The notes beneath the pieces were generated by a model, which made no database searches, was not told the DNA's origin, and saw nothing but the letters and a program-made list of their open reading frames with translations. Both the position numbers and the translations under genes were made by a program. Shown piece by piece: positions 5,401 to 63,575 of a DNA stretch of 64,000 nt (position 1 is the stretch's first letter; each line of letters starts with the position of its first letter). Origin of the DNA: Sabellastarte sp. h YS-2021 (lineage: Eukaryota; Annelida; Polychaeta; Sabellida; Sabellidae); the NCBI GenBank assembly GCA_964017235.1, contig OZ024928.1, positions 80,285,566 to 80,349,565 on the forward strand, given 5' to 3'.

Positions 5401-5789
5401 ATGTCAGCTGACTTGTCAGTCAGCTGACATTATGTCATCACTCTGCGGCGTGGGGGTACGCGTACGCATCCGCGTGAACAACTTCTTCTCCAAAACTACA
5501 AGGCCTAGAGACATGCTGTTTTTTTTAAAAGATACCTTATCTATCGAGGATGAAAAATTGTTCAAGGCATGCAAATCTGTCTGTTCGTCTGTGTGCTAGA
5601 GACATTACAAGGGGGGTACCCCCACCAAAAGTGTGAAAATTTCAACTTTTTATCACAATTTTCTCAGTGACTATTGCAGGGATTTCTCTCATATCTTGCA
5701 TATATGTACTAGGCCAGAGGTAGATTCTCTTGTGTGAGTATGAGACCTGGATCTGTCTTACTTTTTTTTTAATAAATTTTTTTAATAAT

Positions 5790-7400
5790 TTTTAATGCAT
5801 TAAAATTCATGAAATCATGCACTAAATCACTTATAACTTCAAAAGTGTTGCATTTACAGCATTTTGTGAAAATATGTTGTTCAGCTACTTTTTTCATAGC
5901 TACAATATGGTGAGTAAGTCGGGTGTCTGTCTCAATAGCTAAGTGAGTAATAGCTACTTTTGGGCTTTTCAGTAACTTCCATTATGAGTAAAATCACTTG
6001 TAACTTAAAAACTATTGCATTTAGAGAATTTCGTATAAATATGTTATTCAGCTACTTTTGGGCCAGCTATAACATAGTGAAATTTCAGACCTGTAGCTCA
6101 TGGCGTAGCTGAGTAATAGCTACTTTTAGGTTATCACTGTTGAGTAAATCGCTTATAACTTGAAAACTATTGCATTTAGAGAATTTCATATAAATATGTT
6201 ATTCAGCTACTTTTGGGTCAGCTATAACATAGTAAAATTTCAGACCTGTAGCTCATGGCATAGCTGAGTAATAGCTACTTTTAGGTTATCACTGTTGAGT
6301 AAATCACTTATAACTTGAAAAGTGTTGCATTTAGAGCATTTTGTTAAAATATGTTATTCAGCTACTTTTTTCATAGCTACAATATGGTGAGTAAGTTGGG
6401 TGTCTGTCTCAATAGCTAAGTGAGTAATAGCTACTTTTGGGCTTTTCAGTAACTTCCATCATGAGTAAAATCACTTGTAACTTAAAAACTATTGCATTTA
6501 GAGAATTTCGTATAAATATGTTATTCAGCTACTTTTGGGCCAGCTATAACATAGTAAAATTTCAGACCTGTAGCTCATGGCATAGCTGAGTAATAGCTAC
6601 TTTTAGGTTATCACTGTTGAGTAAATCACTTATAACTTCAAAACTATTGCATTTAGAATATTTTGTTTCAATATGTTATTCACCTATTTTGGGGTCAGCT
6701 ATAACATAGTGAAGTTTCAGACCTGTGGCTCATTTCATAGCTGAGTAATAGCTACTTTGAAGTTCTCACTGTTGAGTAAATCAGTTATAATTGGAAAACT
6801 ATTGCATTTACAGAAATTTGTGCAAATATGTTATTCAGCTACTTTTGGGTCAGCTATAACATACTGAAATTATAGACCTATAGCTCATGGCACAACTGAG
6901 CAATAGCTATTCTCAGGTACTGACTGTTGAGTAAATCAGCTATAACTTGAAAAATATTGCATTTGGAGTATTTTGTTAAAATATATTGTTCACCTACTTT
7001 TGGGTCAGCTATAACATAGTGAAGTTACAGACCTATAGCTCATGGCATAGCAGAGCAATAGCTATTTTCAGGTTCTCACTATTGAGTAAATCAGTTGTAG
7101 CTTGAAAACTATTGCATTTACAGTAGTTTGCTTAAATATGTTGTTCACCTACTTTTGGGTTAGCTATAACATAGTAAAATTTCAGACATGTAGCTCATTG
7201 CATAGCTGAGTAATAGTTCCTTTGAGGTTCTCACTGTTGAGTAAATCAGTTGTAACTTGAAAACTATTACATTTAGAGTAATTTGTTAAATATGTTATTC
7301 ACAGAATTTTTGGTCAGCTATAACATAGTGAAATTGCAGACCTCTATGTCATGGCATAGCTGAGCAATAGCTACTTTCAGGTTCTCACTGTTGAATAAAT
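5790..7400 (+). repeat. ~155-bp tandem array, about 10 units
   Basis: The CAGCTATAACATAGT motif recurs at about 6064, 6219, 6541, 6695, 6851, 7006, 7162 and 7315, a 154-161 bp step. Each unit carries TAGCTACTTTTGGG, GTTGAGTAAATCA and AACTTGAAAACTATTGCATTT. The first two units differ in reading 'tttcatagctacaatatggtgagtaag' (27 bases, here only described) where others have the CAGCTATAACA form. The same units occur in reverse at about 47500-48560. Confidence 0.93.
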
Positions 7401-7589
7401 CATTGTATCCACTGGATAGCCGCAGTGTGTAGAGAGAGATTTCACCATTACTGCTCTGATGAAAAAAAATATTATAGCTAGCTTTCTTAAGTTTGCAGTA
7501 TATATTAATAACCATAAAATGTTGTCTGGGAATATTTTTGGCCTCATTTTGAGAAACAAGATGGCCGCCACAGGTGTTTTTTGTCAGTC

Positions 7590-8165
7590 ATGAAAAGTGC
7601 TTATATCTCCCTTATTATTGATCCTAGAGGTTTGGGATGATAAACCAACCTGTAGGAAATCATGGGGTGGGAATCTTTTGGTGTGGTCAGATTTGACCTT
7701 CAATGACCCCTCCTTCAAGGTCAAACAAGGATAGCCAAACTTAAAAGTGCTTATAACTCGCTTATTATTGGTCCCAGAGGTTTGGGATGGTAAACAGACA
7801 GGAAGTCATGGGCTGTGAATCTGTTGATATGGTCCGATTTGACCTTGGAACCCTCCTTCAAGGTCAAATGAGGATAGCGAAAATTGAAAGTGCCTACAAC
7901 TCACTTATTATTGGTGACAGAAATTTGGGATGGTAAACCATCCCATAGGAAATCATTGGCTCGGAATCTTTTGGTATGGTCAGATTTGACCTTTGGACCC
8001 CTCCTTCAAGGTCAAATGAGGACAGCCAAGCTTAAAAGTGCTTATAACTCATTTATAATTGGTCCTAGAGGTTTGGAATGGTAAACCATAGGAAATCATG
8101 GGCTGGGAATATATTTGTGTGGTTAGATTTGACCTTGGACCCCTTCTTCAAGGTCGAACGAGGAT
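7590..8165 (+). repeat. ~147-bp tandem array, about 4 units
   Basis: CTTATTATTGGTCC-like cores recur at about 7610, 7761, 7904 and 8053. Each is followed by AGAGGTTTGGGATGG, GGAAATCATGGGCTGGGAAT and TCAGATTTGACCTTGGACC. A GATGGCCGCCA motif immediately precedes the array (about 7560). The same array recurs at about 61140-61570 and in reverse at about 46310-46520. Confidence 0.92.
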
Positions 8166-8452
8166 ATTGCATTTGTAGTATTTCTTTAAATATGTTTTAA
8201 CCTATTTTTTACACTTAAACAATTACCTTGTTATTTTCCTTCATAATACCATTTACAGGGCACAACTTTTTTATCCTTTTCTTCTGTCAGCTTCGGAATT
8301 TCTTTCAAACTTGCTGTTCAGTTACCATTTACTGTATTTCTGTACAGCCCTTTTCCTGAGAATTATTCTGTCCTCTAATCACCTTCACAAATCAAAAACA
8401 CTCAGTCAGCTGACACAGTGCCCGTTCACGGGCACTCTCCTCTTGTTTAGAT

Positions 8453-8950
8453 AAATACTCCACAGACAGTTGAAGAAACAATTATTACAAGTGTTTAGGA
8501 GTCTATTGCAGTAAAGGAAATAATTATTAGTGTTCAAGAGCCTGATAACAGTAAAATCATAACCTGTAGTCAGGAGCCAAAAACAGCTAAGGTAAAAACA
8601 GTTATCAGTGGTTCTGGAGCCAATGACAGTAAAATAACAATTATTACCCGTACCGATAGCCAATGACAGTGAGGTTAACAATTATGACGAGTGTTCAGAA
8701 ACCAATGATACCCAAGGAAACAACTATTATCAGTGTCCGTGGGAATCAATGATAGTTAAGGAAACAATTATGACCAGTGTTCATGAACCAATGTTAGGCT
8801 AGGAAACAACTATTGTTGTTGTTCAGGAGCCAATGACAGTTAAGAAAACAATTATTACTAGTATTGAGAGCCAATGACAGTTAAGGAAAGAATGCTTATC
8901 AATATTCGGGGATCAGTGACAGTTAAGGCATTAGATAAATACAAGTGTTT
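8453..8950 (+). repeat. Degenerate ~60-bp minisatellite
   Basis: AGCCAATGACAGTTAAGGAAACAATTATTAC-type units (described here in two parts: AGCCAATGACAGTTAAGG and AAACAATTATTACNAGTGTT) repeat eight to ten times with heavy decay. The array starts directly after the 3' hairpin of the preceding element, so it may be part of that element or flanking. Confidence 0.8.
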
Positions 8951-15211
<6,261 letters not shown>

Positions 15212-17100
15212 AGCAGGTAGTCTACAGTGAACCTGTTGTGACAGCATATGATGTACACAGTTAACTGAATAGATAGAACCACAGTAAGTTTAAGTTTTGC
15301 ATCAGGGGAACCAGTTCTGTGGTCCCAATATTGTTTTGTGTATTTATATTCAGCACAATATCTACTTTACAACAGAACTTAAAGTGCTATTTTACCCATC
15401 CAGAATGCAGAAGTACAGCTCAAACTCAATCAAGACTCACAATACCCTAACTGGTAGACATAGTCCGATGTGACAATTTATCCACAATTTTAGGCAGATA
15501 CTGGGATTTGAACCCAATCACAGAGGACGAACATCTTAATTAACACCAGTTTAAGTGTCAGAAGATGCTGTACTTTTACATTGTACTTGATCATAGCTTA
15601 ATCTAACTTGTGCAGGTAATGGAACTCCTATGTGTGCAAAATCTATGGTACTAAAATTTTTATTGTCTGAACTTTTGTTGTCCAAATATTCAGATTTGTA
15701 AACTTAATTCACTTCTCCCAAAACTCCATTATTGACACACTGAAGAGGTTTTTTTATATTATTAAGAAATGGTTTCTTATCCGAGTACAATATTCTATCC
15801 TTGAAATAGGAGCATAACAGAAGGTTTGGCTGTGTCTGATGGTGATTAGGTCGAGATAATCTTAACAGAGCTTTCACCAAGCAAATCAAAGATATCACAT
15901 TTGTCAGACTTGTAAAATAAAATATGGTTCTTGTCAAGAGATAAGCTTGAGAAGATTTGACAATACATTTACAGTTCCTTGTTTTCTCAGCTCTGAGTTT
16001 ATTGGCTTCTGTCAGCGCTATGAATAAATTGCATAGGTTTCTTCATAGAAAGAGTTCGGGTTATTATCACAGGGTGTTTGCAAATATATATATGGCATTT
16101 CTTGATGTATTGATGTATATAAGATAAACTGTCATTTATGGTTAGTACGAATGTGCATGTGTAATTTAGCATTTATGTCTGATAGTGTGTACTTGATTTA
16201 TGCTGCTTACATATCTAATGACAATTGTTCTGTTTAAATCATGGAGTCTCATTGTGTATGGGCTTCAGATGCAGCCTTGATATCCATACTGTATCAAGTT
16301 ATGGGTAGTGGTGGATATTGTAAAATTTGAGAACCTTCAGAGAAAGCTCAATACAAAGAGATAACTCTAAGAATACTTTATTATAATGTCCTCTTACAGA
16401 GCAGATATTCACATTTTTTTGGTAAAACAGCAGGTTAATTATTAACACAGAGAAGTGGAAGATAATATAATTATGTATCAGAATACAAGAAGTGTCTTAT
16501 TAGCACAAACTCTTTGCATGTAGTTAGTACCTAAAAAACACACAATGAATCTCGCCAGATAGTTCCACTTGAAATTTAAAAAAGAAGCTCTCACTGTGAC
16601 CCTTCTCACTTCTCTCCCTTTAACTGGTTTGCACTTAAAGACCCTGCTAGAGACCTTCCACGTCTTTTGTATATATTGTTCTGCATTGTCACCTTTTGTG
16701 TGCAATAAGTGTGAAATATTTGTTAAAACGCAAAAAAGGGGAAAAAGAAACTCAATCAGGATCTAAATTCAAATCATCTTTACATAAGGCCGAGCCATGG
16801 GTAGTAGACCCCACCTTGTGTGGAAACATCACCCAGATCAGATAGTTTTCCAGGTTTGTGCATAGACAAATCCAGTTCCAATAATCTCGCCCCTCTCGTT
16901 GAAGGAGAGGGGAGATAGGGAAATAAATGTGCTCTTAAAAGTGTAAATGTTGTCCTTTCAAAGGGGAATGTCTGTCTGGAGAAGACATTTCTATTTACTT
17001 TTATCTGGGGGAAAATGTTGCAAACATTTAAAGCGCTTTCTATGTTGGATGTTTGATTTCAATAAATGAAAATGTTTGTGTCTTACGTAATTTGTTCAGT
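15212..17100 (+). other. ALK: ALK 3' untranslated region (extent uncertain)
   Basis: No supported coding sequence. Candidate AATAAA signals lie at 15916-15921, 16023-16028, 16922-16927 and 17061-17066, so the transcript may end at any of several sites. Short frames on either strand (15704-15937, 16478-16766) lack motifs. Confidence 0.5.
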
Positions 17101-17548
17101 AATTTCATCTGTATAACTTTGTCATGATAAATAGGATAGCTTATCAGATCTAGGATAGCAGGAGGAAAAGTAATTTGACAACATGTATTTTAAAACTTCA
17201 GCCTGTTAATACAGTGTACACATGATTCTGGCTTTGTTTAACTAAAAATGCTAGTTTCTTGTTAAAACTTGTATTGTCGTTTCTTATTAATCAATGAATC
17301 ATGTGCTGCTCTTTATATCATCATTTGGCTGAAAGTGAGGAATTAATGATTTTTATGCATTTTCAAGTTTTACATGCAATTAAAATATGGCACCAAAAAT
17401 ATGCCATGGCAAGGATTTCTTGTTATGATGTAAAACTTACTAACATTTTGCCAGACTTTTTATCTCTCTTTGAGCACGCTCTTACCTTGTAATATTTATT
17501 GTGGTGTGTCTTTTAGTAGACACATACACCAATTTCAACTTTATATTT

Positions 17549-17639
17549 CATTTTTATCCTGGCTGAGATTATGAATGCTAGTTTTTATCCTGGCTGAATT
17601 TATGAATGCTAGTTTTTTTCCTGACAGAATTTGTGATAG
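17549..17639 (+). repeat. 31-32 bp tandem repeat, left part (split by transposon)
   Basis: Units of the form CTGGCTGAATTTATGAATG plus CTAGTTTTTATC are spaced 31 bp. The array stops at 17639 and resumes at 18406, so the element at 17640-18405 was inserted into it. Confidence 0.85.
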
Positions 17640-18405
17640 TCTGGTTCCCGACCTCTGCAATATATGGTCAGGTATCGCCCACCATCTTGGGTACTACGTT
17701 TCCGTAGTTACCACCTAGCAATGATCAAGAAGAAATTAAATAAAAATATTTCTAGTTAACACATTTGGTGCACATTTTGACACAATATTCCCCATTTACT
17801 GTGTAATGATATCCCATAATAATTAAACAATATTTGTGATAAACAAAAAATGTGCATCACTTTAAGTGCTGTCGATCCTCTATTATCACCCAAAACCACG
17901 TATTTGCTTTTAAAGAGTATTGTCTTCTCAAAATATTTTTAAGATCAATTGCCATTATTTGATGTTATAAGGAGGTCCTCGGTGGCCTAGTGGTTAGCAA
18001 GTTTGGCATCTAATCATAGGCTGTCACCTCTGTGGGTTCGAGTCCCACAAGTGGCAATGCTGAGGACCTGTCCCAATATGACCCAGGCTGTTGAACGGGA
18101 CGTTAAACCCCAACTTTGACTTTGATGTTATAAGTCCAATAATATATGGTAAAAATATTTAAATACATATAAAATGCATATGAATAATTGAAATAACGAT
18201 TGAGATTTCCCGATATTAATGATGCATTCTTTTGGTTCTTCAGCACTGGTACTTACTAGTTCACACCCTGGAAAAATGCCGTTGAAAATGCAAACAACTG
18301 TTTTGTGGGAAAATAGCACCATCTCACGACGTAAAAAAGAATGCAGCAAGGCCATCATGGGCGATACCAGTCCCTTATTGTTAAAGGTTGGCTGGTTCCC
18401 TGTCT
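17640..18405 (-). mobile_element. Non-autonomous DNA transposon (family M1), contains a SINE
   Basis: Its ends match, in reverse complement, the ends of the 2.4-kb element at 49262-51627: CTGGTTCCCGACC...GGTATCGCCCACCATCTTGG on one side and CAAGGCCATCATGGGCGATA...GGTTGGCTGGTTCCC on the other. The GGTATCGCCCA/TGGGCGATA segments form subterminal inverted repeats. Internal sequence around AAGTGCTGTCGATCCTCTAT is also shared. The 62-codon frame at 18219-18407 inside it is not supported as a gene. It is flanked by AATTTGTGA on both sides, but that is also the unit of the host tandem repeat. Confidence 0.85.
17972..18120 (+). mobile_element. tRNA-derived SINE with perfect 14-bp target duplication
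   Basis: A head of tRNA type is visible: A-box-like TGGCCTAGTGGTTAGCAAG, a perfect B box GGTTCGAGTCCC inside a GTGGG/CCCAC stem, and an outer stem AGGTCCTC/GAGGACCT. The tail reads GACGTTAAACCCCAACTTTG. The target site TTTGATGTTATAAG is repeated exactly at 17958-17971 and 18121-18134. It is nested in the M1 element, so it is younger than it. Confidence 0.95.
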
Positions 18406-18490
18406 AAATTTGTGAATGCTAGTTTTTTATCTGGGCAGAATTTGTGAATACTAGTTTTTATCTAGGCGGAATTTGTAAAATGCTAGTTAT
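18406..18490 (+). repeat. 31-32 bp tandem repeat, right part
   Basis: AAATTTGTGAATGCTAGTTT units continue here at a 31-32 bp step after the M1 insertion. Confidence 0.85.
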
Positions 18491-20339
18491 CCAAAGAACA
18501 TTTCACTGTGAAAGTACAGAATATTTTTAATCTTGTTATTTTCATAAATTGGTTTGTACTCACTGTTATTGTATTTTATCAAATAATATTGTCTAGAATT
18601 TTATTGGAAACCTCCAAATTATCACCAAATTGGTGGTAGTGTGTTTATGATGTGTCCTCTTAAAAGATGACATTTAGTTTAGCTCTCTCATTCCAGATGA
18701 AATAGACAAAGTATTGCTTGAAACAAGGTTTACCTTTTTACTTTTAAACTTCAACACAGCTTACCGATATTAAATTTCTTGCTTGTACATTAGTATTTTA
18801 AATATGAACCTAAAGTGTCTGCATATTGTAAATAAATGTTGTGCCTTAGTCAGAAGTCACAGATATATAATAGTAATCTTAAAGTCACTGCAAATGCTTT
18901 GGTTGTAAGTCATTCAACCTGTATTATTTAACTTGAAAATTATATGTTTGAATAAGGCAGTGCTCGGTTGATCATGAAACCTTCCAGTGGTTGAATTAAC
19001 ATTCAATTTTAAAGTGAACCAAGACTGACACAACAGTAGCTCATACTGGTCTATGTTTTAACGATTCATATATCTATATAACTATCACTATGCTCTTTCT
19101 AGGTCATTTTAAAATGCTTCTTTAACTTTAAAAATTAGCTCAAAGACTCCATAAATACTGCACAAATAGTACTTCATCACCCAAAATTTTTATATGTTTG
19201 AAAAAAAATCAATGTTTTCCAAGAAAAATTCTAGGAATGAGAATATCTGTTAATAAAAGGATGCTAGTTTGTTTGAGTTGCTGGCTGATCCTGATGGAGG
19301 TAAAATTGCAGATTGGTATAGTTCAAGGATTATTTCCTAGATCATTGATATCAGTGTGAAGCCACATGGATAACTCACCTACAATCATACCAAGAGCTGG
19401 AGACCTGTCATTGCAAAATAGTTCAGAACTTCTGAACACCTCACTTGTCCAGTAGTTAACATTTTTGGTGTTTTATCATCTGCCTGTTGCAAGGTTCCAG
19501 TCCATTTCATGGCAAAATGTAGGATAGTGGATCGAGGAAAAGTTGAGCTTTTAAAAAACCCAAATTTGACCTTTGTCTTTTGTTGCCCTCCAGACCTTGT
19601 AGTGTGTATCATTGAGTGACAAAAACACAGTCATCAGTTGAACTTGATGTTTGTTACGATGTATGAAGAAAGTGTTCTTACCAAACAGATGTGGTTTACC
19701 TTGATTCAGCTCTGTCACTTCTTTAATCAGATTTTATTTGTTCTAACCTTAGTAATGTAAGACAATTTTAACTTATTATATTCGTGAAATATTAGATAAC
19801 AAATGGTCAAATCTAACTTAAATAAAACCACATATCTGTTCTGGTTGAAGGGTTTTGCTCAAATATTGTAAGAAAATTTCTGTAGAAGTTTTGGTGACTT
19901 CACAGTTATTTGAATGCGAGAACTCCATAATACAGAAACATGTGTATCAAATATTGTAGTTGTGATAAATTATGTATAACAGTATTTATTCCTATATTAA
20001 ACTATGTATGAGTGTAAATTTATGAGTATATTCATGTATTAAAGTTGTTGATTGAATCTATTTTTATTGATAATGCCCATTTTTTTTAAGAAGTGTGACA
20101 CAAACTTGACAAACTCTGACCTCACACAAGATACTCAGAAACTATTAAGTTTGAAAGAGTATATATCTCTATACACCCTGTACACATAGCATGCTTTCTT
20201 GTTGAGTGTTGCAATAAACTCAGCCTTGTAATGTAATTAAAGTTTGATTTTTACTTTGCTTGCTTCAAGGACACACAGCATCACATGGCCATAGTTTCTT
20301 TTTATGATATGTTCATACTTTTCATTTCCGAATTAGAAT
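18491..20339. other. Intergenic sequence, nothing recognised
   Basis: AT-rich sequence between the ALK 3' end and the KMO 3' end. No frame above 76 codons and no recognised motif or repeat. Confidence 0.55.
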
Positions 20340-20353
20340 TCAAAAGTTCTGCA

Positions 20354-20507
20354 GAGGTCCACGGTGGCCTAGTGGTTCACCAGTTTGGCATCAAATCACA
20401 GGCTTTCACCTCCATAGGTTTGAGTCCTGCTAATGGCAAATGCCGAGGACCTGTCGCAATATGACTTTGGCTGTTGAGCGGAATGTAAAACCCCAACTTT
20501 GACTTTG
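20354..20507 (+). mobile_element. tRNA-derived SINE, older copy of the 17972 family
   Basis: Same layout as the 17972 SINE: AGGTCCACGGTGGCCTAGTG, a weakened B box GGTTTGAGTCC, GCCGAGGACCTG and a tail ending AAAACCCCAACTTTGAC. The target duplication is TCAAAAGTTCTGCA at 20340-20353 against TCAAAAGTACTGCA at 20508-20521, one mismatch. Mutations in the B box and tail agree with greater age. Confidence 0.92.
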
Positions 20508-20521
20508 TCAAAAGTACTGCA

Positions 20522-21563
20522 CAGAGGCCATTTATATATGGGTTGTGCTATTTCTTGAACCCTGGAATGGACCCTATTTTGCCGGAAATTTCAAACTCAA
20601 AGTGATAAGAATTGATATTAAAGTTACAATATTTTAGAAAGTTTTTTCGACAATGAGTCTAAAATAATTTTGTAAATTAACTTTATATTTAGCATGAATA
20701 CAACATGTTCCGCTGAAACTTAATGGATTGCTTTTGGTTTAACACTGCTTTGAATGCATAATATGAGACATATCATGATGGGTAATTACAGAGATGGAGA
20801 AAAGTAGTCTATGCATTTAGTCATAATTCTACATTGTAAAACTGCCAAAATTCCCTTTTATGTTTGGATTGAAATGTGCACCCAAAATTTATGCAAGCCT
20901 GTCCCTATTTTAGGTGGAGGATCAGTTACAATGATTGATACCTGCAGTAAAGAAATGACCATTCTAAAAATACAAGCAAAACAAATAGAGGAACAAACAT
21001 TCACATGTGTAAATATTTAATAACTTCACACTGTTATAAAAGCCACTTCCCAAAATACCTCAAAGATATGAAATGATATACAATTGTAAAGCTTGTCAAA
21101 TTTTATAAATATACACAAGTTTAGTAACATATTAAAATACACTGATATCAAAAGTAGCTGCCTGGTAAATCAATCCTTTATATTTACTCTAACAGTATAA
21201 ACTCTTATCAATAAGTGGGATTAAATCATTAGCATTTTCCACATACTCTTCTTAAGTTCTATTAGGTTGATATAAATGTACTGAATCTTTGTCTCAAAAC
21301 ATGAGGACATTGGTCTTCAGATTGTGTTCAGGCAATGGAGGGTCTGCAATATACCATTGCAATCAGGTCTTCATAAACAAATAGAAGTCTCCTGTTCAAA
21401 AGTTTTTGTGCAGGTGCAAATTTTCAGTAGACATTATTTTTTTAGTTATCTGAAAAGTTGATTATCCAAAATGACTTCCTGGTAAAATTTTTAATTTAAC
21501 TGCATTAACCTCATAAGCAGAATCCGACCATTAGAGAAAATAAATTCTCATTACTTTCTATTG
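20522..21563. other. Intergenic sequence, nothing recognised
   Basis: AT-rich. A 69-codon frame at 20811-21020 lacks splice or domain support. Confidence 0.5.
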
Positions 21564-21569
21564 TTTATT
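21564..21569 (-). promoter_or_regulatory. KMO: Candidate KMO polyadenylation signal
   Basis: AATAAA on the minus strand (TTTATT on plus), about 300 bases downstream of the KMO stop codon. If it is used, the KMO 3' UTR overlaps the putative plus-strand exon at 21660-21787. Confidence 0.4.
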
Positions 21570-21659
21570 TGTAAAATCTTCTTGCAGTATTCAGACATTG
21601 CCTGTTGGAGACAGTCAATTTGATAACTATCTTTTTGTTCTCTTCTCAAATTTCAATAG

Positions 21660-21787
21660 AAAATGTTCTGCATGACCGAAGATATGTTGAACACCCTGAC
21701 TTTGTATTAGAAGGGTTACAGGAAATAGAAGGGTTATGGGAGGAGTTCCAGGCAGCAATAATCCGAGACTGCAAGAGAGAGACATAA
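21660..21787 (+). CDS. Possible terminal exon of an unidentified plus-strand gene
   Basis: A strong acceptor (CTTTTTGTTCTCTTCTCAAATTTCAATAG, quoted as TTCTCAAATTTCAATAG) precedes 21660. In the frame with one base borrowed from a previous exon, 41 codons read NVLHDRRYVEHPDFVLEGLQ and continue EIEGLWEEFQAAIIRDCKRET to TAA at 21785-21787. Composition is soluble-protein-like, acidic and helical, unlike the repeat-derived frames nearby. I do not recognise the family and found no upstream exons on this strand. It lies antisense to the KMO 3' UTR. It could be a chance open frame. Confidence 0.35.
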
Positions 21788-21868
21788 AGAACCAGCAGCC
21801 TTAAGCAAGCCTCCTTCCCCGTTACAGTTGTACAAATGTTCCACACAAGGACACTTCCTGAAGTTGTG

Positions 21869-53574
<31,706 letters not shown>

Positions 53575-53622
53575 GTCTACAGCTGTTGTTTTGTCTTCCC
53601 TTTAAAATGGGCTGCGTAATCC
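53575..53622 (-). other. KMO: KMO 5' UTR end of exon 1, with a likely upstream splice acceptor
   Basis: On the minus strand ATTCTTCTACCACAG precedes GATTACGCAGCCC, 48 bases before the ATG. This looks like an acceptor, so a non-coding first exon probably lies further up (above 53622). I could not place the promoter. Confidence 0.45.
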
Positions 53623-55373
53623 TGTGGTAGAAGAATCTGTGTCACAATTTCACCCCAAAACAAACTTTCAAATTGTTATATATTATTTAGTTTACAATAC
53701 TTTTATCCGTACTGTATGAATAACCAGTCTTCCAACGACACCACACCAATATATTATTTGTGATTTTACATATAATTAGACCATGTGGTGATGTAACAGT
53801 TTTAACATAGGCTTCCTTTGCATAAAATAGATGTTCTCCACTTTAATGAACGAGATGTTATAATGTCCACATTCAGTAATAACAGTTTTTTCTCACATGA
53901 CTCCAGTAAAGTACATGGACCCCATGAAACTAGTTCTAGATTAACAAGAACCACACGGAAATATTTTATATGTTATAATTAAAGTGCTAATTAAAACCCT
54001 ATTGGGTACTGTATGTATACAGTATTGAAATCTCTGAATTTGTAAATAGGTCATTTCTTCTTTTGGGAGGAAATTCTTTCAGTTTTCTTCTTTATTTAGT
54101 TTCATATTATTGTCTGTTTGCATGATATAAATAGTGACTATATTTTACATAAGTGTTTACAAAACAAATTCACCGTCAGGTCCTTTGGGGAGAAGTATTA
54201 TTTGAAACTTTCAACTGATATACTCTTGAATTGTCACCCATATCTATATAATATGGATAGTGGAATTTTTTAAAGGACAGATATGGGTGTACGAGCGGCA
54301 AGTAATGGGCCAAAGTTTGAAAAAGACAGACTGCATGTACATTGTTGAGATTCTAGCATATTGGTACAATAGTGAATAGTATCGCTTGGTGGTAGTGGGC
54401 GGTGTTAAAGTTATGTCCATGATTTATGGCATCAACAGAGTGTGGTCTGTCATCTGGTACTTTTACATCACACGTGAGAGACCTCCGTGGGAAAATGACA
54501 AGCATATTCAGGATTCAATTACTTGATTTGAACCCTGTTGTCATGGGCTCAAATCTCTCTCATTACAACACATGGTAATAAACGTTCGAAGTAATAAACG
54601 TAATATTACCCCAACTGGCCAACTTGTCAGGTATCAGATCGCCTCATTATTACCAAATCAAATTACATGAGGGATATGTAGAAGAAACTTGATTCTACTG
54701 TATCATGTAAATTGCATAAACTGGCTTTTAGGTTGGTTTCAACAGCCAGACCCTTGTAAAACAGACATAGATTCTACATGTGTATATATTTTCCACAAGT
54801 TGACAGGAGTTAGATTAAAATTAATGCACAACCTCAGATGTGATTTCAAACCAATCTGCTAATTCCAAGAAATATTTGACTCCTAGGACCAGTGTTGATA
54901 TCACATAGGACACGGTGATAGACTGGTTAATAAGTTTAACATTTCACCACTCGCCTGTCAAAGCTGTGGTTGTGGGTTCAAATGAAACTCATCAAAAGAT
55001 GCGGTAATTAGTTGTTGAAAAGAACCACAACTTTGACCTTTGACATCGATATTCTTGATGTTCCAGTTACCTCGCAATAATGAGATAACAGATTTTATTA
55101 AAATGCACTGTCTCACATGATATATGCTTTCCCAGCAATAACGAGAGATAAATTTTTATGATGTATGCATTTCACAATTAATTATTGGTGTAGTGAATGG
55201 TGTTAAGTGTCATCGGTTCTAAAGAAAAATTCTATGATACTAGTTGAAATGTAAAGACTTGCTCCTTCATTGCCTTAAGTTGTTCAACTGACCAAAATAG
55301 TGAAACTTGTACCCTACGACTGTAAATTTTACAATAATTCATACACAAACTTCACTAAAGGTATTAAAACTAC
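53623..55373. other. Sequence upstream of KMO, no gene recognised
   Basis: Should contain the KMO promoter and a non-coding first exon, neither of which I can place. Near 54950-55050 GTGGTTGTGGGTTCAAATGA resembles a decayed tRNA-SINE B-box region, not called. Confidence 0.4.
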
Positions 55374-55772
55374 GGAAGCCTATAAGGGTCATGCTGAAAA
55401 AAAAAATTAAGTCGTAATTACGACTTACTATGTCGTAATTACGACTTATGAATTTTTTTAAAAACAAAAAACAACAATATTATCTCATAATTACGACTTA
55501 CACAAGTCGTAATTACGAGATACTAAGTCGTAATTACGACTTATGAATTTTTTTTAAAACCAAAAACAAGAACTCCTAAGTCGTAATTACGACTTACTAT
55601 CTCGTAATTACGACTTACACAAGTCGTAATTACGAGATCCTAAGTCGTAATTACGACTTATGAATTTTTTTTTAAACCAAAAACAAGAACTTACTATCTC
55701 GTAATTACGACTTGCTATCTCGTAATTACGACTTGTGAATTTTTTTTAAAACAAAAAACAACAAAATTGAGT

Positions 55773-56085
55773 GTTGGGCATGATCTCCCTTAGTGGTCAA
55801 GTGGGTAACACATTTGCCTGGCACACTGTTAATTAGGGTTCAAGCCTGGGTCAGGGAGATACATAGTGACTCAGATGATCACTATATTGGAGGTCCCGTG
55901 TTATCGGGCCCTTTCCCCAGTGACACCTAAAAGAACTTTGGAGACGTTGATAATTAGTCATCTCCAAGCCTCTTGATAATTAGTCATCTCCAAGCCTCTG
56001 TCTCTCTCTGTTGTAAATGTGATAGTCCCAGTATGACCCTGAGTGGTTGATGTGGATGTTAAACAACTAAATAACTTTAACTAAG
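55773..56085 (+). mobile_element. tRNA-related SINE, forward copy
   Basis: GATCTCCCTTAGTGGTCAAG, GGTAACACATTTGCC (A-box region), GGGTTCAAGCCTGGGTC (B-box-like) and closing GGGAGATA, which pairs with TATCTCCC-type sequence at the head (ATCTCCC/GGGAGAT stem). The tail includes two TAATTAGTCATCTCCAAGCC copies and ends GGATGTTAAACAACTAAATA, comparable to the GTTAAACCCC tails of the other SINEs here. Confidence 0.82.
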
Positions 56086-56467
56086 TTGGGCATGACTGAC
56101 AGGACAAGGCAACTGTCTAGCTGACCATAAAATCTTTTGCTACATATACTCAAGGTAGGAAAGTGACTCTAACCAACTTCAACCTAAGTAGCCAGTACTA
56201 CCAGCCTACAGAACACTCACTAATAACATTCAGTTAGAGCCAATTACATTAAACAACTAGATTACACTCTCGAAATTGTGCACTGACTGTAGCCTGTTAT
56301 TAACTAGTCATAGAGCCCCATAGACATCCATATTGCCTGACCTAATTTTGCTTGCTTAGGCTAAAGTGTTCCATTGTCTATCTTTTACAATGGTATGCCC
56401 ACAACCCTAGAATGTGGTTTATTTTTGGGTGAGGGTTGTGGGTAACTTGTGGAGTGTAGGCAGTTGT

Positions 56468-56561
56468 CTATGTATCTCCCTGACCCAGGCTTGAACCCTA
56501 ATTAACAGTGTGCCAGGCAAATGTGTTACCCACTTGACCACTAAGGGAGATCATGCCCAAC
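56468..56561 (-). mobile_element. SINE head, inverted perfect copy
   Basis: Exact reverse complement of 55773-55866 over 94 bases. The rest of the SINE tail is not present in this orientation. Confidence 0.93.
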
Positions 56562-57358
56562 TTAGAGCTTTAGCTCTGAACAAACACCACACCGTCTATT
56601 AGCATAGATTGGTGTTATAAAGGAAAAATGTTTGGTCAACTTTATTCTGCATTAGCTACCTCCATCGCAGTTTTAAATTCATCCCAATGTAACCCAGTCT
56701 TAAGTTATAATTGCGAGACAATTTTGTTGTTTTTTATTTTTAAAAAAATTCATAAGTCGTAATTACGACTTAGTATCTCGTAATTACGACTTATGTAAGT
56801 TGTAATTACGAGATAGTAAGTCGTAATTACGACTTAGGAGTTCTTGTTTTTGGTTTTAAAAAAAATTCATAAGTCGTAATTACGAGATAGTAAGTCGTAA
56901 TTACGACTTAGGAGTTCTTGTTTTTGGTTTTAAAAAAATTCATAAGTCGTAATTACGAGATACTAAGTCGTAATTACGACTTAGGAGTTCTTGTTTTTGG
57001 TTTTAAAAAAATTCCATAAGTCGTAATTACGACTTGTGCAAGTCGTAATTACGACTTAATTTTTTTTTCAACATGACCCTTATAGGCTTCCATATAAAAC
57101 AATTCTTTGCAGATAAACTATTTATCGTATATAGTTACGTGCAATCATGTATAGTAATTTTCCTGTCAGAGAAGATCCAGAATAGCCACCTAAAAAGTAA
57201 GCAGTCTTTGAAGAATTCATTATTCAGTAGATCTATTTAACTTTTATTTGAAAGTTGTACCAAAACATGTTGAAAGAATTAAGATGGCCAGAGTACTTGG
57301 GGTTAGATGTGGTGCAGGGTAACCATACCAACAGTAAAGCTATATAACCTTCTCTTTG

Positions 57359-57560
57359 CACTAGCGGATCGGGGGTGGGGGTTCAGGGGGTTCGAGCCCA
57401 AAGTACAAAATTATTTCTTGAGAGTGGTGTTGAATTTACAGAAAATGCACTATATTTTTATCAAAAATTAATTTTTTTCCTGGGGGCATGCCCCCACCCC
57501 CCCTAGTTATGGTATGTCTAATGTGAACCCCCCCTTACTTAAAAGCTGTATCCGCCCCTG
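57359..57560 (-). mobile_element. Second copy of the 5-bp-duplication MITE
   Basis: CACTAGCGGATC...GTATCCGCCCCTG, with CTTTG at 57354-57358 and again at 57561-57565. Reverse orientation relative to 31957-32258, with the same GGCATGCCCCC, TTATGGTATGTC-type core and TTCACATTAG words. Confidence 0.93.
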
Positions 57561-57742
57561 CTTTGTGTATTTAATGCTAGCTGGATGCTTGCAATTTTAT
57601 TTGGCCAATGTTGCCGTTTTCGTGATGTACGTTGACTATTGATAATGGTGGTCATTATGTTATTTCTGTTGAAGAAGGACAATGGGAGATTCGAGTTTGA
57701 GTTCATTTGCGTGTTTCATTTGGGAAACATATATAAACTTCT

Positions 57743-58324
57743 GGGCTGGTATTCACAAAGGGTCTTAGACTCAGCCAAGTTTTGGGCTAAGTCAGGACTT
57801 AAATCTAAGACTTTGGTCTTAGCTAGGCCTGGGACTTAAATGGATTTCACAAAGGGTGACTTAGCTAAGTCCAAGCTTATCAAATAACCACTGTGGTTTT
57901 CTGTGTCACGTGATCTTTTATATCTACTCAAAATATACTGTTGGTGACATATCCCTTATTTGATTCATTTCACCTAAGGATAAGTGTTGTTTTGAAATGG
58001 AAAACCTTGTTACCACATGTAAACTTCCCAAAGACTACTTTAGTGACATCTTCTGTATTATACTTTATTTACAGCCATTCAAATTCTGAAGTGGAAAATA
58101 GTTTATGGCGGCCATATTTAAGCCTCTTTACAAAATTTAAGCCCACTACCTCCCAGACTTAAAGTTAAGTCCACTGACTTAGCAATTTCATGGACTTAAC
58201 TGCTTTGTGAAATCCACTAAGTCTAAGACCACAGACATGTCATTCTGTTGACAAAAGTTAAGACCATAGTCTTAAATTTAACTCTAAGTCTAGGCTTAAT
58301 AAGTCCCTTTGTGAAATCGGCCCC
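57743..58324. mobile_element. MITE with ~20-30 bp imperfect inverted repeats (Harbinger-like)
   Basis: Left GGGCTGGTATTCACAAAGGG and right CCCTTTGTGAAATCGGCCCC are inverted, with GACTTA/TAAGTC words throughout. TTTATGGCGGCCATATTT occurs near 58101. It resembles the element at 23809 in layout. The 73-codon frame at 57941-58162 is not a gene. Confidence 0.85.
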
Positions 58325-58339
58325 AGAAGAAATACTACC

Positions 58340-60770
58340 AATAACAGTATTACTTTAAGATGTGGGGGTTAAATGGTCATTATTTTCAATCTTTTTAATC
58401 AAAGTACTCTCTTGAAATTTGTAGTAGATATTTTGCACCAAACATACAAATTTGACAAATAGTTTATACGAACTGAAATTAAACTTAATTGCATCTTCCC
58501 AAACATCTAATCAATATCTCAGTGGTGCGTAAAAACTCCTATAAATTGAAAGCCCGTAATTATTCCAAATAATTTGTAAAATTAGGTGATTTTTAAGCCA
58601 CTGTAAAGAATAATATTGATGGCCTAGTACAAATATACAAGGTAAAATACCATATTTTGGCAACATTGAAGAGTAGATTATCATTGACGTGAATTTTAGA
58701 TTTGTGGGTAGCTGAATCAAAACTGGATACTTAAAAATATCAGGATTGGTACACGTCATTGGGAGTTACTCTGGAGCAGTAAATACCACCTCTGACACAT
58801 TTTTTTTTGCATTTTTACAGGTCGTGAACTCATGTATACCAGTCGTAAAAAGTATAAAGAATGCAGCATTATACTATGGCTTTTGTTTATTTCTTTGTTA
58901 AATTGTTAATGTTGATTCTTTTGTATTAATGGGGTATTTTATGTCAGTGAGGCAAATTGTTGACAAAATTGATTTGCGTGTGTAACAGCTACATACATGG
59001 GTAAAGTAGTTGTTGTGGGATTAAGACAAAATGTAATCCAAGAAAGTGTGATTTAAATAATCAGTGCTGGAAAAAAGAAACCGCTAGCAGTTTAAAAAAT
59101 GTGTCTTTTTGCTGTCAAAAGAAATGAAATCCTCTTCCAATTGCTCCACCTTATCCTCAGATTTCTTGGATCACCCAGTGAAAAGCATTCTCAGTTCGCA
59201 CAACCTTTTCCCATACAATTTCATCCATGGACATTTTAAATAAAGTCACATTTGTTAAAAAGGTATGAAGTAAAGCTTCTCTTATATCCCGTCGTACATG
59301 TATACACATGTAAGTGTGCTGCAAATTTTGTTGAAAAAAAAAACTACCACGGGCTGGTAGTGGGGTAGTAGAGATTTGCACTTGCAAACAATGTATAAAT
59401 TGTTTCAACAAGGGTGTCTTGAATATCAAAGAACATACTGCGTGCACACAGAGAAAATGTGCATGCTAATTTTCATTGTGTGGTCTCTGCAGCCTTGATA
59501 TTCTATTATAAAATATAAAGTGTAGCTCAAGTGTCCCTTGCAAATCAGCCGATTTTTCTCTGTAACCAGGACGTACGTGCACGTACGATGGGATGTATGA
59601 GAGGCTTAATTTAAGGAGTTGATCTAATTGAAAGATATGTGTACAAATATCTAAACAGTAAGACAGATATCTTATCAACTAAAATTTTTTAAGTATTAAA
59701 TGTTGAAAAATGATCTCATTTAATTTTTAATTAAAATAAGATTTTAGAGATTAGACCCCTTTGTTTCGTTAAAGTAGTACATATCAGATTTCAAGGCTAA
59801 ACTTGTGTTATGTCCATTTTCCCTGGTCATACCTGCCGGGGGGGGAGGGGGTCCAGAACATCCTAGATGTGGGCAAGACCAACAAAACAGCAACACAAGT
59901 ACATAGTACACACTTTAATCCCAATTTAACCCTTCACAAACTATTTACTTGTAAAAACACTTAATAATTTTCAGATTTTCATCTCTGGGAACATGTACGT
60001 TGTTACTGCCACACCTTGGCTGTTCTTCCTTTTTTCCAGAGGAAACATGGGTTTTTATATTTTGGGTTAAGCCTTGGCCAAGTTAACATATTTTGGGCTT
60101 TTGTTCAATGGATAAAATTTTCTTACACATATTTTCTGGCATAAGTAAATGTGCAGGGTTTTTTAAAACTCAAAACTAAACTATCATTACGAACAGTAAA
60201 TAAATAATCGGATACATTACGTCCAAATACACAAATACAAATTTACCAGATGCATTATACAGCATAATAATAATATTAGTCACTGAGGAAAAATATCTGA
60301 AAACCTAGTACCTTTATTAATCCCTTCCTTTAGAGATTAAGCAGTGTAACATGATAACTAATTGAGATATTTATTAATTAGATCACTAGGAATTAATCAG
60401 GCTTTCCTAAATAATGCTTTTAAACGTGTCGTGTAACTTATAGAGATTGTATTTTGCGCTTGTTTTTCTCTACAATTATCTTGGCAAAGGTACAGCTCAT
60501 TGCTAGCTTATGTTTGCTAATTTATTTTCATTTATATAGCTACAGTGAAAAAACAATACCGTAGTTGATAAAGTATTTATATATAGGATTAATACATTAC
60601 TTTTAATATATTATGTTTTCAGTTTGTCTTAACATTTTGCTTTTCAAATTCTCTCTGCCATATCTGCGTGGTAAGGATCCCATTTTTTTTCTGGAGTTCT
60701 GCCTAACAAGTATACTTTCTCCAAGTCTTTCACATTCCACAAAATCTGACATACATGGTATCATTGTATC
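58340..60770. other. Intergenic, nothing recognised
   Basis: AT-rich with short frames on the minus strand (58511-58759, 59157-59447, 59466-59678) lacking motifs or matching splice sites. A G-run of nine at about 59838. Confidence 0.5.
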
Positions 60771-61660
60771 CACCAGATAGCATCCCATGGATACTATGGA
60801 TTTCGCTTCGTTACACCGCTGCAGTGAGTAGAGAGATTTCACCGTTACCGCTCTAACAAAAAAATATTATAGCTAGCCTTCTCAAATTTGCAGGATATAT
60901 TCATAACCATAAAATCTTGCCTGGGAATATTTTTGGCCTCATTTTGAGAAACAAAATGGCTGCCAGGAACATTTATTCGACTTTAAGCAAGGACTTTTGT
61001 TGGCCCTCTAGAGCAAAGGGTATTATAAGTAGAGATATCAAATTCACAGGATATGTTCCTTATGACAAAATCTTGACTGGGAATATTTTTGGCCTCATTT
61101 TGAAAAACAAAGTGGCCGCTATGGCCGTTTTTTGTCAGTCATGAAAAGAGCTTATATATCACTTATTATTGGTCCTAGAGGTTTGGGATGGTGAACCAAC
61201 CTATAGGAAATCATGGGCTGGGAATCTTTTGGTGTGGTCAGATTTGACCTTGGACCCATCCTTCAAGGTCAAACGAGGATAGCCAAACTTAAAAGAGCTT
61301 ATAACTCACTTATTATTGGTCCTAGAGGTTTGCAATGTGAAACCAATATGTAGGAAATCATGGGCTAGGAATCTTAGGATGTGATCAGATTTGACCTTTG
61401 TCCCCTCTTTCAAGGTCAAATGAGGATAGCCAATATTAAAGTGCTTATATCTCACTTATACGTGTTCCTAGAGGTTTGCAATGTCACACCAACCTATTGG
61501 AAATCATGGGGTAAGAATCTTTTAATGTTGTCAGATTTCACCTTGGGCTCCTTCAAGGTTAAGCGATGGTTGATTGGCTTTGGTGAGTTTTCCTTCTGGT
61601 GGATACAATTTGCATCAGTTGTCTGATGTGCTAGATCTAGTTATTTATGAATCTAGCGGG
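60770..61660 (+). mobile_element. Third copy of the 5401-type element core, partial
   Basis: ATTGTATCCACCAGATAGCA, AGAGAGATTTCACCGTTACCG, AATATTATAGCTAGCC and GGCCTCATTTTGAGAAACAA match 7405-7570. From about 61140 come three ~147-bp units (ACTTATTATTGGTCCTAGAG at 61161 and 61308). The 155-bp array and both hairpin ends are absent. Confidence 0.85.
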
Positions 61661-61904
61661 TGAGTGGGGAACCTTATGTCAGCCTCAAATTCTGGTAAAA
61701 AAATAATAATGTTACCTTAAAGGACTTGAAGAAGAAAGTCTACCCAACAATAGCTGGCTCTTCTCTCATGGTAATTAAAAATTGCTGACTTTCATTTGTT
61801 AGTTTGAAAGGCTTTCCTTATTAATTCTGATAGAATGATACTTAATACTTAAAACAGTTCCTTTTATTGACTAGTGGCTATCGACATTTGAATGTATTTA
61901 TAAA

Positions 61905-63575
61905 ACAAGGCCACTGCCACAGCAGTTATCTCCCACCTTAGAATCAGTAATAATGGAGAACTAAAGGAGATATAAGGCCTTTGTAGTAAGATAACCCCAC
62001 TTGACATTGAAAAATGGGTCAAAGGTAAAAGTCAGCAATTGGAAAAGTCTCAGACCATGACTTCCTTTAAGTTGTTTTCACATTTGGAACCCCTAGTAGC
62101 AATGAGTAAGGAGATATAGGCCTTTTTAATAGGATAATCTGATTAAATCTTAAATATGTGATATTGCGGCCATTTTGTTTTCGAAACTAGGCCAAATTAC
62201 TATCAGGCTAACTTTTCCAGCCGTATATCTTTTGTGCAAATTTGATGAACCTAGGTGCAATATTTCAAGTTTTACAGCATCTTAATGATTTTGAAATAAT
62301 TGGCTATGGTGGCCATTTTGTTTTTCAAAATAAGGTCAAAATTTTTCTTAGGCAAAACATTTGCAGGCCAGGACTTTTCATGATCTATCTTTACGTTCTG
62401 AAGCCATAGCACCAATAATAAGGGAGAAATAAGGATGTTTCAGTGTGATGATCCAATTTAACCTTGAAGCAGGGCTCAAAGGCCAAATTCAACACCTGGA
62501 AAAGATTCCCAGGCCATGACTTCCCACAAGTTGTTTTCACATTCGGAACCTATAGGAGCAATATTAGGGGAGACATCAGGCCATTTTAATAGAATTACCC
62601 CCATTTGACATAAAACATGTGATATGGCGGCCATTTTGTTTTTAGGTCTAGGCCAAAATTACTATCAGGCTAGCTTTTTTAGCCATATATCTTTTGTGCA
62701 AATTCGATGAAGCTAGCTGAAATATTTCAAGATTTAGAGCACCATTATGATTTTCAAACAATTGCCTATGGCAGCCATTTTGTTTCTCAAAGTGAGGCCA
62801 AAATTTTGCACAGATAGATTATTATAGTCATAAACATTCCTTGCAAATTGAAGATATCTTTATAATTGAATGAGATATTAAGGTTTATGTAAAAAGCGTG
62901 ACAAACGGATGCAAGTACAAACGGACGCATGTACAGAAGGTGTTTTATAATCTCCCGACCACAGCCTTCCCTTTTCATGGTCTGTCTTTACATTCTGAAG
63001 CCAGAGCACCAATAATAAGGGAGAAATAAGGATGTTTTAGCATGACGACCCCATTTAACCTTGAAACAGAGGTCAAAGGTCAAATTCAACACCTGGAAAA
63101 GATTCCCAGGCCATAATTTCCTACAAGTTGTTATCACATTCCGAACCTCTAGGAGAATTTTAGGGGAGATACAAGGTCTTTTTAATAGGATAACCCTGTT
63201 TGACTTTAAACATGTTATATGGTGGCCATTTTGTTTTTTTGAACCAGGCCAAAATTACTATCAGGCTAGGTTTTCTAGCCATACAGCTTTAGTGCAAATC
63301 TAATAAAACTAGCTGGAATATTTCAAGATTTAGAGCACCTTTATGATTTTCAAGCAATTAGCTATGGTGGCCATTTTGTTTTTCAAAATGAGGCCAAAAT
63401 TTTGCACAGACAGGTTTTCATAGCCATAAACATTCCCTGCAAATTTGGTGGAGATATCTTTATAAATAAATGACATATTAAGATTTATGTAAAACGTGAC
63501 GAATGGACGGACAGACGGACCCACGCACGTACGGAAGGCATTTTATAATCTCCCAATCACGGCCTTCATTTATTT
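61905..63575 (-). repeat. ~600-bp family, tandem run of about 3 units
   Basis: CATAGCACCAATAATAAGGG recurs at about 62405 and 63005 (as CCAGAGCACCAATAATAAGG), with GGCGGCCATTTTGTTTT, AAATTACTATCAGGCTAGCT, CATAAACATTCCCTGCAAAT and ACGGACCCACGCACGTACGG each time. Period is about 597 bp. Confidence 0.88.

Follow-up and report, generated by a model that had tools for sequence, protein, structure and literature searches.

Tandem-array repeats in a Sabellastarte genome window are very probably non-autonomous Helentrons, some of which share array cores

Seven families of dispersed repeats (A to G) in a 64,000-nucleotide stretch of the Sabellastarte sp. h YS-2021 genome (the window; contig OZ024928.1, positions 80,285,566 to 80,349,565) are very probably HINEs, that is, non-autonomous Helentrons, whose ends would be recognised in trans by the Rep/PIF1-helicase/endonuclease of autonomous Helentrons. 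The published HINE anatomy fits them: TT, a 5' subterminal inverted repeat (subTIR) with its own complement, a CG-rich or GTCC-type leader, a tandem array, a 3' subTIR, a 3' palindrome and TT again. The observations behind this reading are the ends themselves, their TT flanks, one empty site, array cores shared between families, and an autonomous Helentron that has this anatomy and whose two ends recur on short elements. Neither classical terminal inverted repeats with fixed target duplications nor hairpin-less true ends, which a first-pass annotation of this DNA had named as contrary evidence, were found where ends were tested.

Ends and internal order of the window families

The order of hairpin, CG-rich leader and array or other body, which the first-pass annotation had described for families A to F, was seen in all six and in family G (60766-61640), which it had not listed. 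Ends were defined as start and stop boundaries common to copies across the genome (1.786 Gb, 647 contigs), using DNA searches in which the best 40 candidates out of hundreds to thousands were scored, so that copy numbers are minimum values. The boundaries were sharp. Both ends lie inside the window for families A, B, C, D and G, and families E and F were completed through other copies in the same genome (fetched loci carry L numbers). Several of the ranges first assigned changed as a result: B extends to 46204 and C to 42094, the repeat at 25352-27715 consists of two D elements, and 53163-53470 holds only the 5' part of F.

Features of family A are as follows.

5401-8445, + strand: family A element (HINE), from the 5' hairpin to CTCTTG followed by TT; common ends across genome copies
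5401-5430, + strand: 5' subTIR (TGTCAGCTGACT) and its inverted complement, forming the 5' hairpin; DNA fold -14 kcal/mol, z -7.8
5985-7402, + strand: core array 1, 155-bp unit, 9.1 copies (Tandem Repeats Finder, TRF)
7593-8166, + strand: core array 2, 143-bp unit, 3.9 copies (TRF)
8404-8445, + strand: 3' subTIR (AGTCAGCTGACA), palindrome AGTGCCCGTTCACGGGCACT and tail CTCCTCTTG; from sequence, fold z -4.3

Among the best 40 places, each of the 39 non-window matches to the A 5' end starts within the T-run that precedes ATGTCAGCTGAC, at query bases 2-8, and all 39 to the 3' end stop at bases 169-178 of 181. TTTT precedes the 5' end in 8/8 fetched copies and TT follows CTCTTG in 30/30 fetched 3' ends. 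The leader between the 5' hairpin and the arrays is GTACGCGTACGC; it is duplicated just upstream at 6 of the 40 places, and the one of these that was read (L005) has two tandem 5' ends.

Family B has the following parts.

46204-48919, - strand: family B element (HINE), from the GTATCCCC hairpin to CTAG followed by TT; common ends across copies
48894-48919, - strand: 5' hairpin GTATCCCCGACGCGAAGCGGGGATAC; fold z -3.7
47427-48373, - strand: core array, 155-bp unit, shared with A and also adjoining the open reading frame (ORF) of a second Helentron lineage, beta (TRF)
46530-47270, - strand: core array, 133-bp unit, also adjoining the beta ORF (TRF); the window copy is 87-91% identical to a beta locus (L130) in the matches listed
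46204-46252, - strand: 3' subTIR, hairpin GCATCTG-GCCA-CAGATGC and CTAG; fold z -3.0

The string GTATCCCC is the exact start of all 30 fetched B copies, with TT before it in 29. Of seven longer copies, the window copy included, six end in the same 3' subTIR, hairpin and CTAG followed by TT, and in the seventh (L014) a different hairpin-headed element interrupts B; the spread in length among the six complete copies fits differences in array copy number. Within the first 1.7 kb, however, the match is lost early, at differing places, in 9/30 fetched copies. Such variable loss is what a retroelement would leave if the constant hairpin were the 3' end of its RNA and the variable far ends arose by 5' truncation during target-primed reverse transcription, and one of these early-stopping copies (L022) has similar, non-identical 13-base stretches on both sides. 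The other eight of the nine show no clear duplication by eye, and several of the early stops look like insertions into B: one (L015) carries an insertion that is presumably pogo-like, and the same element lies in both L023 and L030. The sharp far end (subTIR, hairpin, CTAG) common to six of the seven longer copies ruled this reading out for B, and together with the duplication-free empty site described below it largely refutes retroelements with a 3' hairpin, which we regard as very improbable.

Further hairpin-headed elements abut B copies at L013, L014 and L036: one has CCACCCCCCTGGGGGGTGG and GTCCGGC repeats, and others have AAGCGTCC-type hairpins with CTCCGCCGG or CCGCCACC repeats. End-to-end template switching was considered for the hairpins that abut the interrupted copies and was set aside for the simpler explanation of nested insertion.

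Family C supplies the empty site.

42094-45313, - strand: family C element (HINE), from the ATATCCCCAGAC hairpin and CCG-repeat leader to the 3' subTIR, an imperfect hairpin and CTAG followed by TT; copies read at both ends
43449-44887, - strand: core array, unit of about 350 bp (TRF)

Both C ends were read in 6/6 copies, all six with CTAG followed by TT, and TT or T-rich sequence precedes the 5' end in 13/13. Position 43080, at which the element had been thought to end, is interior: a 371-bp query across it is 100% identical over its full length at 40/40 scored places, on which evidence family C looks very young. One C copy (L108/L109) is inserted within a 133-bp array. When its flanks are joined, the alignment to uninterrupted B arrays continues across the junction (84-92% identity with 1-3 gaps in the 13 alignments listed), and a 20-base string spanning the junction is present exactly in six of seven B copies. 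Because this string is intact in B, there is no target duplication at the site. The same site bears on foldback or MITE-type (miniature inverted-repeat) cut-and-paste transposons, which would likewise have inverted repeats and hairpins near both ends and would leave ordinary target duplications. That reading has little probability, since the 3' inverted repeat is subterminal, with a palindrome of unrelated sequence and a short tail beyond it, and since the one empty site tested lacks a duplication and the elements are flanked by TT rather than by a duplicated target.

The remaining families are listed below.

25353-26124, - strand: family D copy 1, subTIR AACCCCAGCCC; 3' stop across genome matches, 11-base exact subTIR pair
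26595-27708, - strand: family D copy 2; 10-base exact subTIR pair, 81-84% identical to copy 1 in two stretches
51882-52483, - strand: family E 5' portion, with a T-run, ATCTCC hairpin, CG-rich leader and body; six other copies fetched, ATCTCC intact in four
61906-63568, - strand: family E-type element with a 3' end (GGGAGAT subTIR, ACTGC-TGTG-GCAGT, CCTTG followed by TTTT) and an incomplete 5' hairpin; from sequence
53168-53462, + strand: family F, 5' portion only, with the ACCTCTGCCAAGG hairpin, TCTGTCCG leader and first body units; from sequence and other copies
60766-61640, + strand: family G element, from GTATCCACC to GGTGGATAC, a hairpin and CTAGATCTAG followed by TT; from window sequence, 14-base exact subTIR pair

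At the 3' end of D, the match ends at query positions 235-243 for 37 of the 39 non-window places and at 246 and 250 for the other two. The E 3' end was not seen within 51890-52490; it was read in one (L125) of three other copies fetched and was not seen in the other two (L123, L124). The E-type stretch 62830-63568 is 85% identical to 51735-52467. All three F copies fetched have a 3' end, composed of a CCTTGGCGGAGG-type subTIR, a GCACTCTCTGAGTGC-type palindrome and CTCTTG followed by TT. No complete E or F copy was found at the coordinates first given for these families (51890-52490 and 53163-53470). A second F-type terminal hairpin (CCTCCTTGGCGGAGG) is present at 41221-41231. Family G, with both ends in the window, was detected by scanning for CTAGTT behind hairpins.

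The tails fall into classes: CTTG followed by TT in A, E and F; CTAG followed by TT in B, C and G, which also have the start (G/A)TATCC in common; and GGCTA followed by TTTTT in D. The subTIRs differ between these classes. Canonical Helitrons have a 5' TC and a 3' hairpin followed by CTRR, and insert between A and T. The window families depart from this pattern, as their 5' ends are not TC, CTAG is confined to B, C and G, and TT lies on both sides. Given the differing tails and subTIRs, several Helentron families are more likely to move the window elements than one machinery. The proposal that a single replication machinery mobilises many unrelated cores thus finds support in the kind of machinery, namely Helentron-type rolling-circle replication, but not in a single machinery serving all families nor, as shown below, in the unrelatedness of the cores.

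Hairpin stability was assessed by DNA folding against 200 shuffles per piece, with one copy each of C, F and G and two each of D and E at the 3' end. At the 5' end, z was -7.8 for A, -4.1 for alpha (the Helentron described in the next section), -3.7 for both B and C and -2.5 for D copy 2, with weaker values for E (-1.8), F (-1.7), D copy 1 (-0.9) and G (-0.5, the piece being one base short). At the 3' end, A (-4.3) and B (-3.0) were matched by 0 and 2 of 200 shuffles, respectively. Weaker values were obtained for E in the window (-1.6), G (-1.4), C (-1.3, one base short) and alpha (-1.1), and the weakest for E in L125 (-0.7), D (-0.1 and +0.2) and F in L122 (+0.5); short stems are visible in families C to G. 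Among the window families, stability is clearly above chance only for the 5' hairpins of A, B and C and the 3' hairpins of A and B; given these scores, the remaining hairpins rest on common boundaries and exact subTIR pairs rather than on stability. The longest exact subTIR pair measures 12 bases in A, 7 in B, 12 in C, 11 and 10 in the two D copies, 13 in E, 13 in F, 14 in G and 12 in alpha, where the pairs for E, F and alpha are variants taken from different copies. A HINE family is defined by 11 identical subTIR bases in the excerpted text of Thomas et al. 2014 (PMC4067079), a length reached by A, C, D copy 1, E, F and G; the pairs of B and D copy 2 fall below it and lie at the expected positions.

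An autonomous Helentron of the same design

A search of the genome with Helitron_like_N returned 24 matches over all lineages. One of the loci (L096) belongs to a lineage, alpha, and contains a 2237-amino-acid (aa) ORF with DUF6570, Helitron_like_N, PIF1, AAA_19 and Exo_endo_phos. PF14214 and PF05970 both score over the cut-off in one alpha ORF. Exo_endo_phos (PF03372) lies below the cut-off in L096 (21.4 versus 24.5 bits) and above it (28.2) in one frame of a second alpha copy (L097), in which the protein is split over three frames. The alpha translation also contains, by eye, what we take to be HLH and YIASY motifs. By its predicted protein, alpha qualifies as an autonomous Helentron, combining Rep (HUH), a PIF1-type helicase and an endonuclease.

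Alpha spans 12,314 bp in total, with its 5' end about 7.4 kb before the Rep domain. This end consists of TTTTT, a hairpin (AGG(T/C)GGGTTGCG, or AGGTGGGTTGCG), a GTCC/GTCT leader and an array. Hairpin and leader were found in three of four loci fetched (L106, L126 and L127, not L128), the array, as measured in L106, has TRF periods of 164 and 187, and two 5' ends each are present in L106 and L127. The 3' end, ...CGCAACCCGCCTTTTGGGGCACCTCTGACCCTCTTG, is identical in all three loci that reach it (L096, L097 and L102), with TT after it in two, and its tail ends in CTTG like those of A, E and F. Alpha presents the design of the first-pass annotation on a protein-coding element.

In queries with the alpha ends, the best 40 of 1551 candidates for the 3' end are 96-100% identical and the best 40 of 1321 for the 5' end 99-100%, and no helicase match lies within 15 kb of 35/40 of these 3' ends or 38/40 of these 5' ends. 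These counts use 88 helicase matches and are the same with 60, when fragments beside retained matches and three C15 matches are excluded. Three pairs of alpha ends in matched orientation span 933, 1498 and 1541 bp, too short for the alpha ORF, and each of their ends is 99-100% identical to alpha. These short elements lie at C7:82.1216 Mb, C4:44.3012 Mb and C1:108.216 Mb. Separately, 24 of the 88 helicase matches span the full 448-aa query at 98-100% identity (an 823-aa open frame in 10 of them); set against 24 Rep matches across all lineages, alpha copies lacking Rep seem to be common.

Several observations weigh against assigning the window families to Helentrons. The alpha subTIR is unlike that of any window family, so that of the Rep/helicase element with the same terminal hairpins that the first-pass annotation had proposed to look for, alpha provides the design but not the matching ends. 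None of the 40 best places of the A 5' end, A 3' end, B 5' end or C lies within 15 kb of a helicase match, the nearest (A 3' end) being 15.4 kb away, although this negative is a weak one. The three short alpha elements are known by their ends alone, and in L097 the alpha 3' end is followed by TA. On the side of the window families, one of the 30 B 5' ends has AT before it, the B subTIR pair is short, most of the short hairpins are no more stable than many shuffles, and the absence of a target duplication comes from one empty site, in family C.

Some of these points would also be expected if unrelated repeats had each acquired a hairpin and an array by convergence, with no common machinery: end sequences differ among A, B/C/G, D, E and F, the short hairpins score weakly, and none of the window families could be linked to an autonomous element. 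Convergence nevertheless seems very unlikely, because every two-ended family and the protein-coding Helentron have their parts in one common order and have T-rich flanks, and because CTTG tails are common to A, E, F and alpha and CTAG tails to B, C and G.

Shared array cores and neighbouring repeats

The first-pass annotation regarded the families as unrelated by sequence, which is wrong for several pairs. A at 6300-7507 and B at 47329-48535 are 94.5% identical over 1209 bp, on opposite strands of the window and with a non-array spacer included, and this 1.2-kb core sits under unrelated end pairs. A at 7470-8015 is 80.5% identical to G over 550 bp. Similarity between A and E and between D and E is weaker, 75-84% at best and about 75% for A-E, and C and F had no match to other families in the comparisons listed. 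When the initial 505 bp of the core are compared, identity of the window A copy is 95-99% with seven other A copies and 90.5-92.7% with B copies (20 matches, two of them to the same copy). This greater closeness of A to A than to B suggests that the transfer of the core predates the spread of each family. The next 730 bp run counter to this simple picture, as the window A copy is 90-92% identical to three A copies versus 94-96% to most B copies, a conflict that could stem from array register or from later exchange.

Arrays of the same type also adjoin a protein-coding lineage. The beta lineage was seen at two loci (L103 and L104), whose helicase-endonuclease parts have 28-29% identity with that of alpha; three stops interrupt the helicase part of L104. 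The beta loci lie at C1:175.35-175.37 Mb and C2:115.876-115.892 Mb. Units of the 155-type and 133-bp kinds start about 0.4 kb past the beta ORF stop; their order agrees between the two copies up to the end of L129, and the two pieces (L129 and L130) are 99.5% identical over 1057 bp. By best match, the beta-side units are 81-97% identical to B copies, and their orientation with respect to the ORF is the reverse of the 5'-3' direction of B. An end of beta was not seen at the L104 locus, where the two last pieces beyond the array are other sequence, and no 3' ends were found in the fetched pieces of four other Rep loci (L100, L103/L129, L104/L130 and L105).

One tentative interpretation, which we consider possible but doubtful, is that array cores act as exchangeable modules among Helentron families whose ends are incompatible; if beta has B-type ends, the arrays would be part of an autonomous element and would later have been passed to A-type ends, rather than being satellites captured singly. 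In the excerpted text of a study of oyster elements, each array cluster goes with one specific flank pair (Vojvoda Zeljko et al. 2020, PMC7492417). A 2025 review, in the portion drawn on here, reports that one array type occurs in different Helitron elements (PMC12628747), and the sharing of cores is therefore not in itself a novelty.

Other repeats border these families. A 169-bp tandem array (10.2 copies, 90%) occupies window positions 1-1709 and runs off the window start. Arrays of CCACTGTACCACTAGGGAAGAAC-type units in both orientations lie at 49497-50887. At 55371-57094, palindromic TAAGTCGTAATTACGACTTA arrays are arranged as a pair of inverted blocks, between which there is a 94-bp inverted repeat of 100% identity, and this region looks like a foldback element. 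The 146-bp array at 28260-28876 (AAGGTCAAAGGTCAAATCAAGGTCACACC) has a relative at L010, behind a ACCCCACAGCCC...GGGGT hairpin and a GGGCGGGCGGG leader, and another at L069; it is probably another HINE family. L023, L030, L097, L118 and L132 each contain a recurrent element that has TATTGCGTTAATACATCCTATCCAATGGACAAT and GC-rich palindromes and frequently lies beside or inside arrays.

Probable mechanism and relation to known Helentrons

For HINEs of this kind, Rep would nick at the TT before the 5' subTIR hairpin, the helicase would unwind the element, and one strand would be displaced and copied by rolling-circle replication until the 3' subTIR and palindrome acted as a terminator, after which the copy would join a TT site without target duplication. 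The interior would be free to change while both ends stay, such that arrays could be carried along and passed between end pairs, and A to G would each use the Rep of their own families. This scheme of nicking, unwinding and termination is partly general knowledge of Helentrons. The subterminal 3' inverted repeat is presumably a feature in common with Helitron2, which has asymmetrical terminal inverted repeats. Further mechanistic background comes in part from excerpts of PMC4067079, and the tandem 5' ends (A in L005; alpha in L106 and L127) fit aberrant rolling-circle copying as described in excerpts of PMC12628747.

The closest precedent is Cg_HINE of Crassostrea gigas, as described in the excerpts of PMC7492417, and the design seen here is already published for these oyster HINEs. 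Cg_HINE has a 5' subTIR with a complementary inverted repeat, a left-flank microsatellite (GTCY/GTCC/GTCK), an array of about 140-180 bp resembling satellite DNA, a 3' subTIR and palindrome, and insertion at TT without target site duplication. The two systems differ in that each oyster array cluster has one flank pair, whereas the core common to A and B is joined to two unrelated pairs of ends, and in that no autonomous element could be related to Cg_HINE, whereas one Helentron here shares both ends with short elements, though not with the window families. According to the same excerpts, Pearl (CvE and others), with up to six repeats of about 160 bp, has been re-categorised as a non-autonomous Helentron, and the bivalve elements DTC84 and MgE have a comparable architecture; we liken all three to the window families by the architecture described, not by sequence. 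The Helentrons and HINE/DINE-1 elements of mites, mosquitoes and Drosophila, in the excerpted text of PMC4067079, resemble those of Sabellastarte in their Rep/helicase/endonuclease, palindromic or inverted-repeat-flanked subTIR, 3' stem-loop and T-rich target, and in HINEs outnumbering their partner. Their sequences differ from those reported here, and in alpha the GTCC leader and the tandem array are found close to the 5' end of the autonomous element itself.

The autonomous partners of array-carrying oyster HINEs are described as unresolved in the excerpts of PMC7492417, and those of a later oyster assembly report no evidence of autonomous elements (PMC7992393). In the open-licence PMC literature we found no report of an autonomous Helentron in a bivalve with short elements sharing both of its ends, which is not proof of absence. 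The present analysis adds the ends of seven families, a core found with two unrelated pairs of ends, a beta lineage in which these arrays also occur, and an autonomous element both of whose ends recur on short relatives. With an open main ORF, a leader and an array in a 12.3-kb Helentron whose two ends are 99-100% identical to those of short elements, the partnership becomes directly testable, and the core shared by A and B offers a case for studying the movement of satellite arrays between transposon families.

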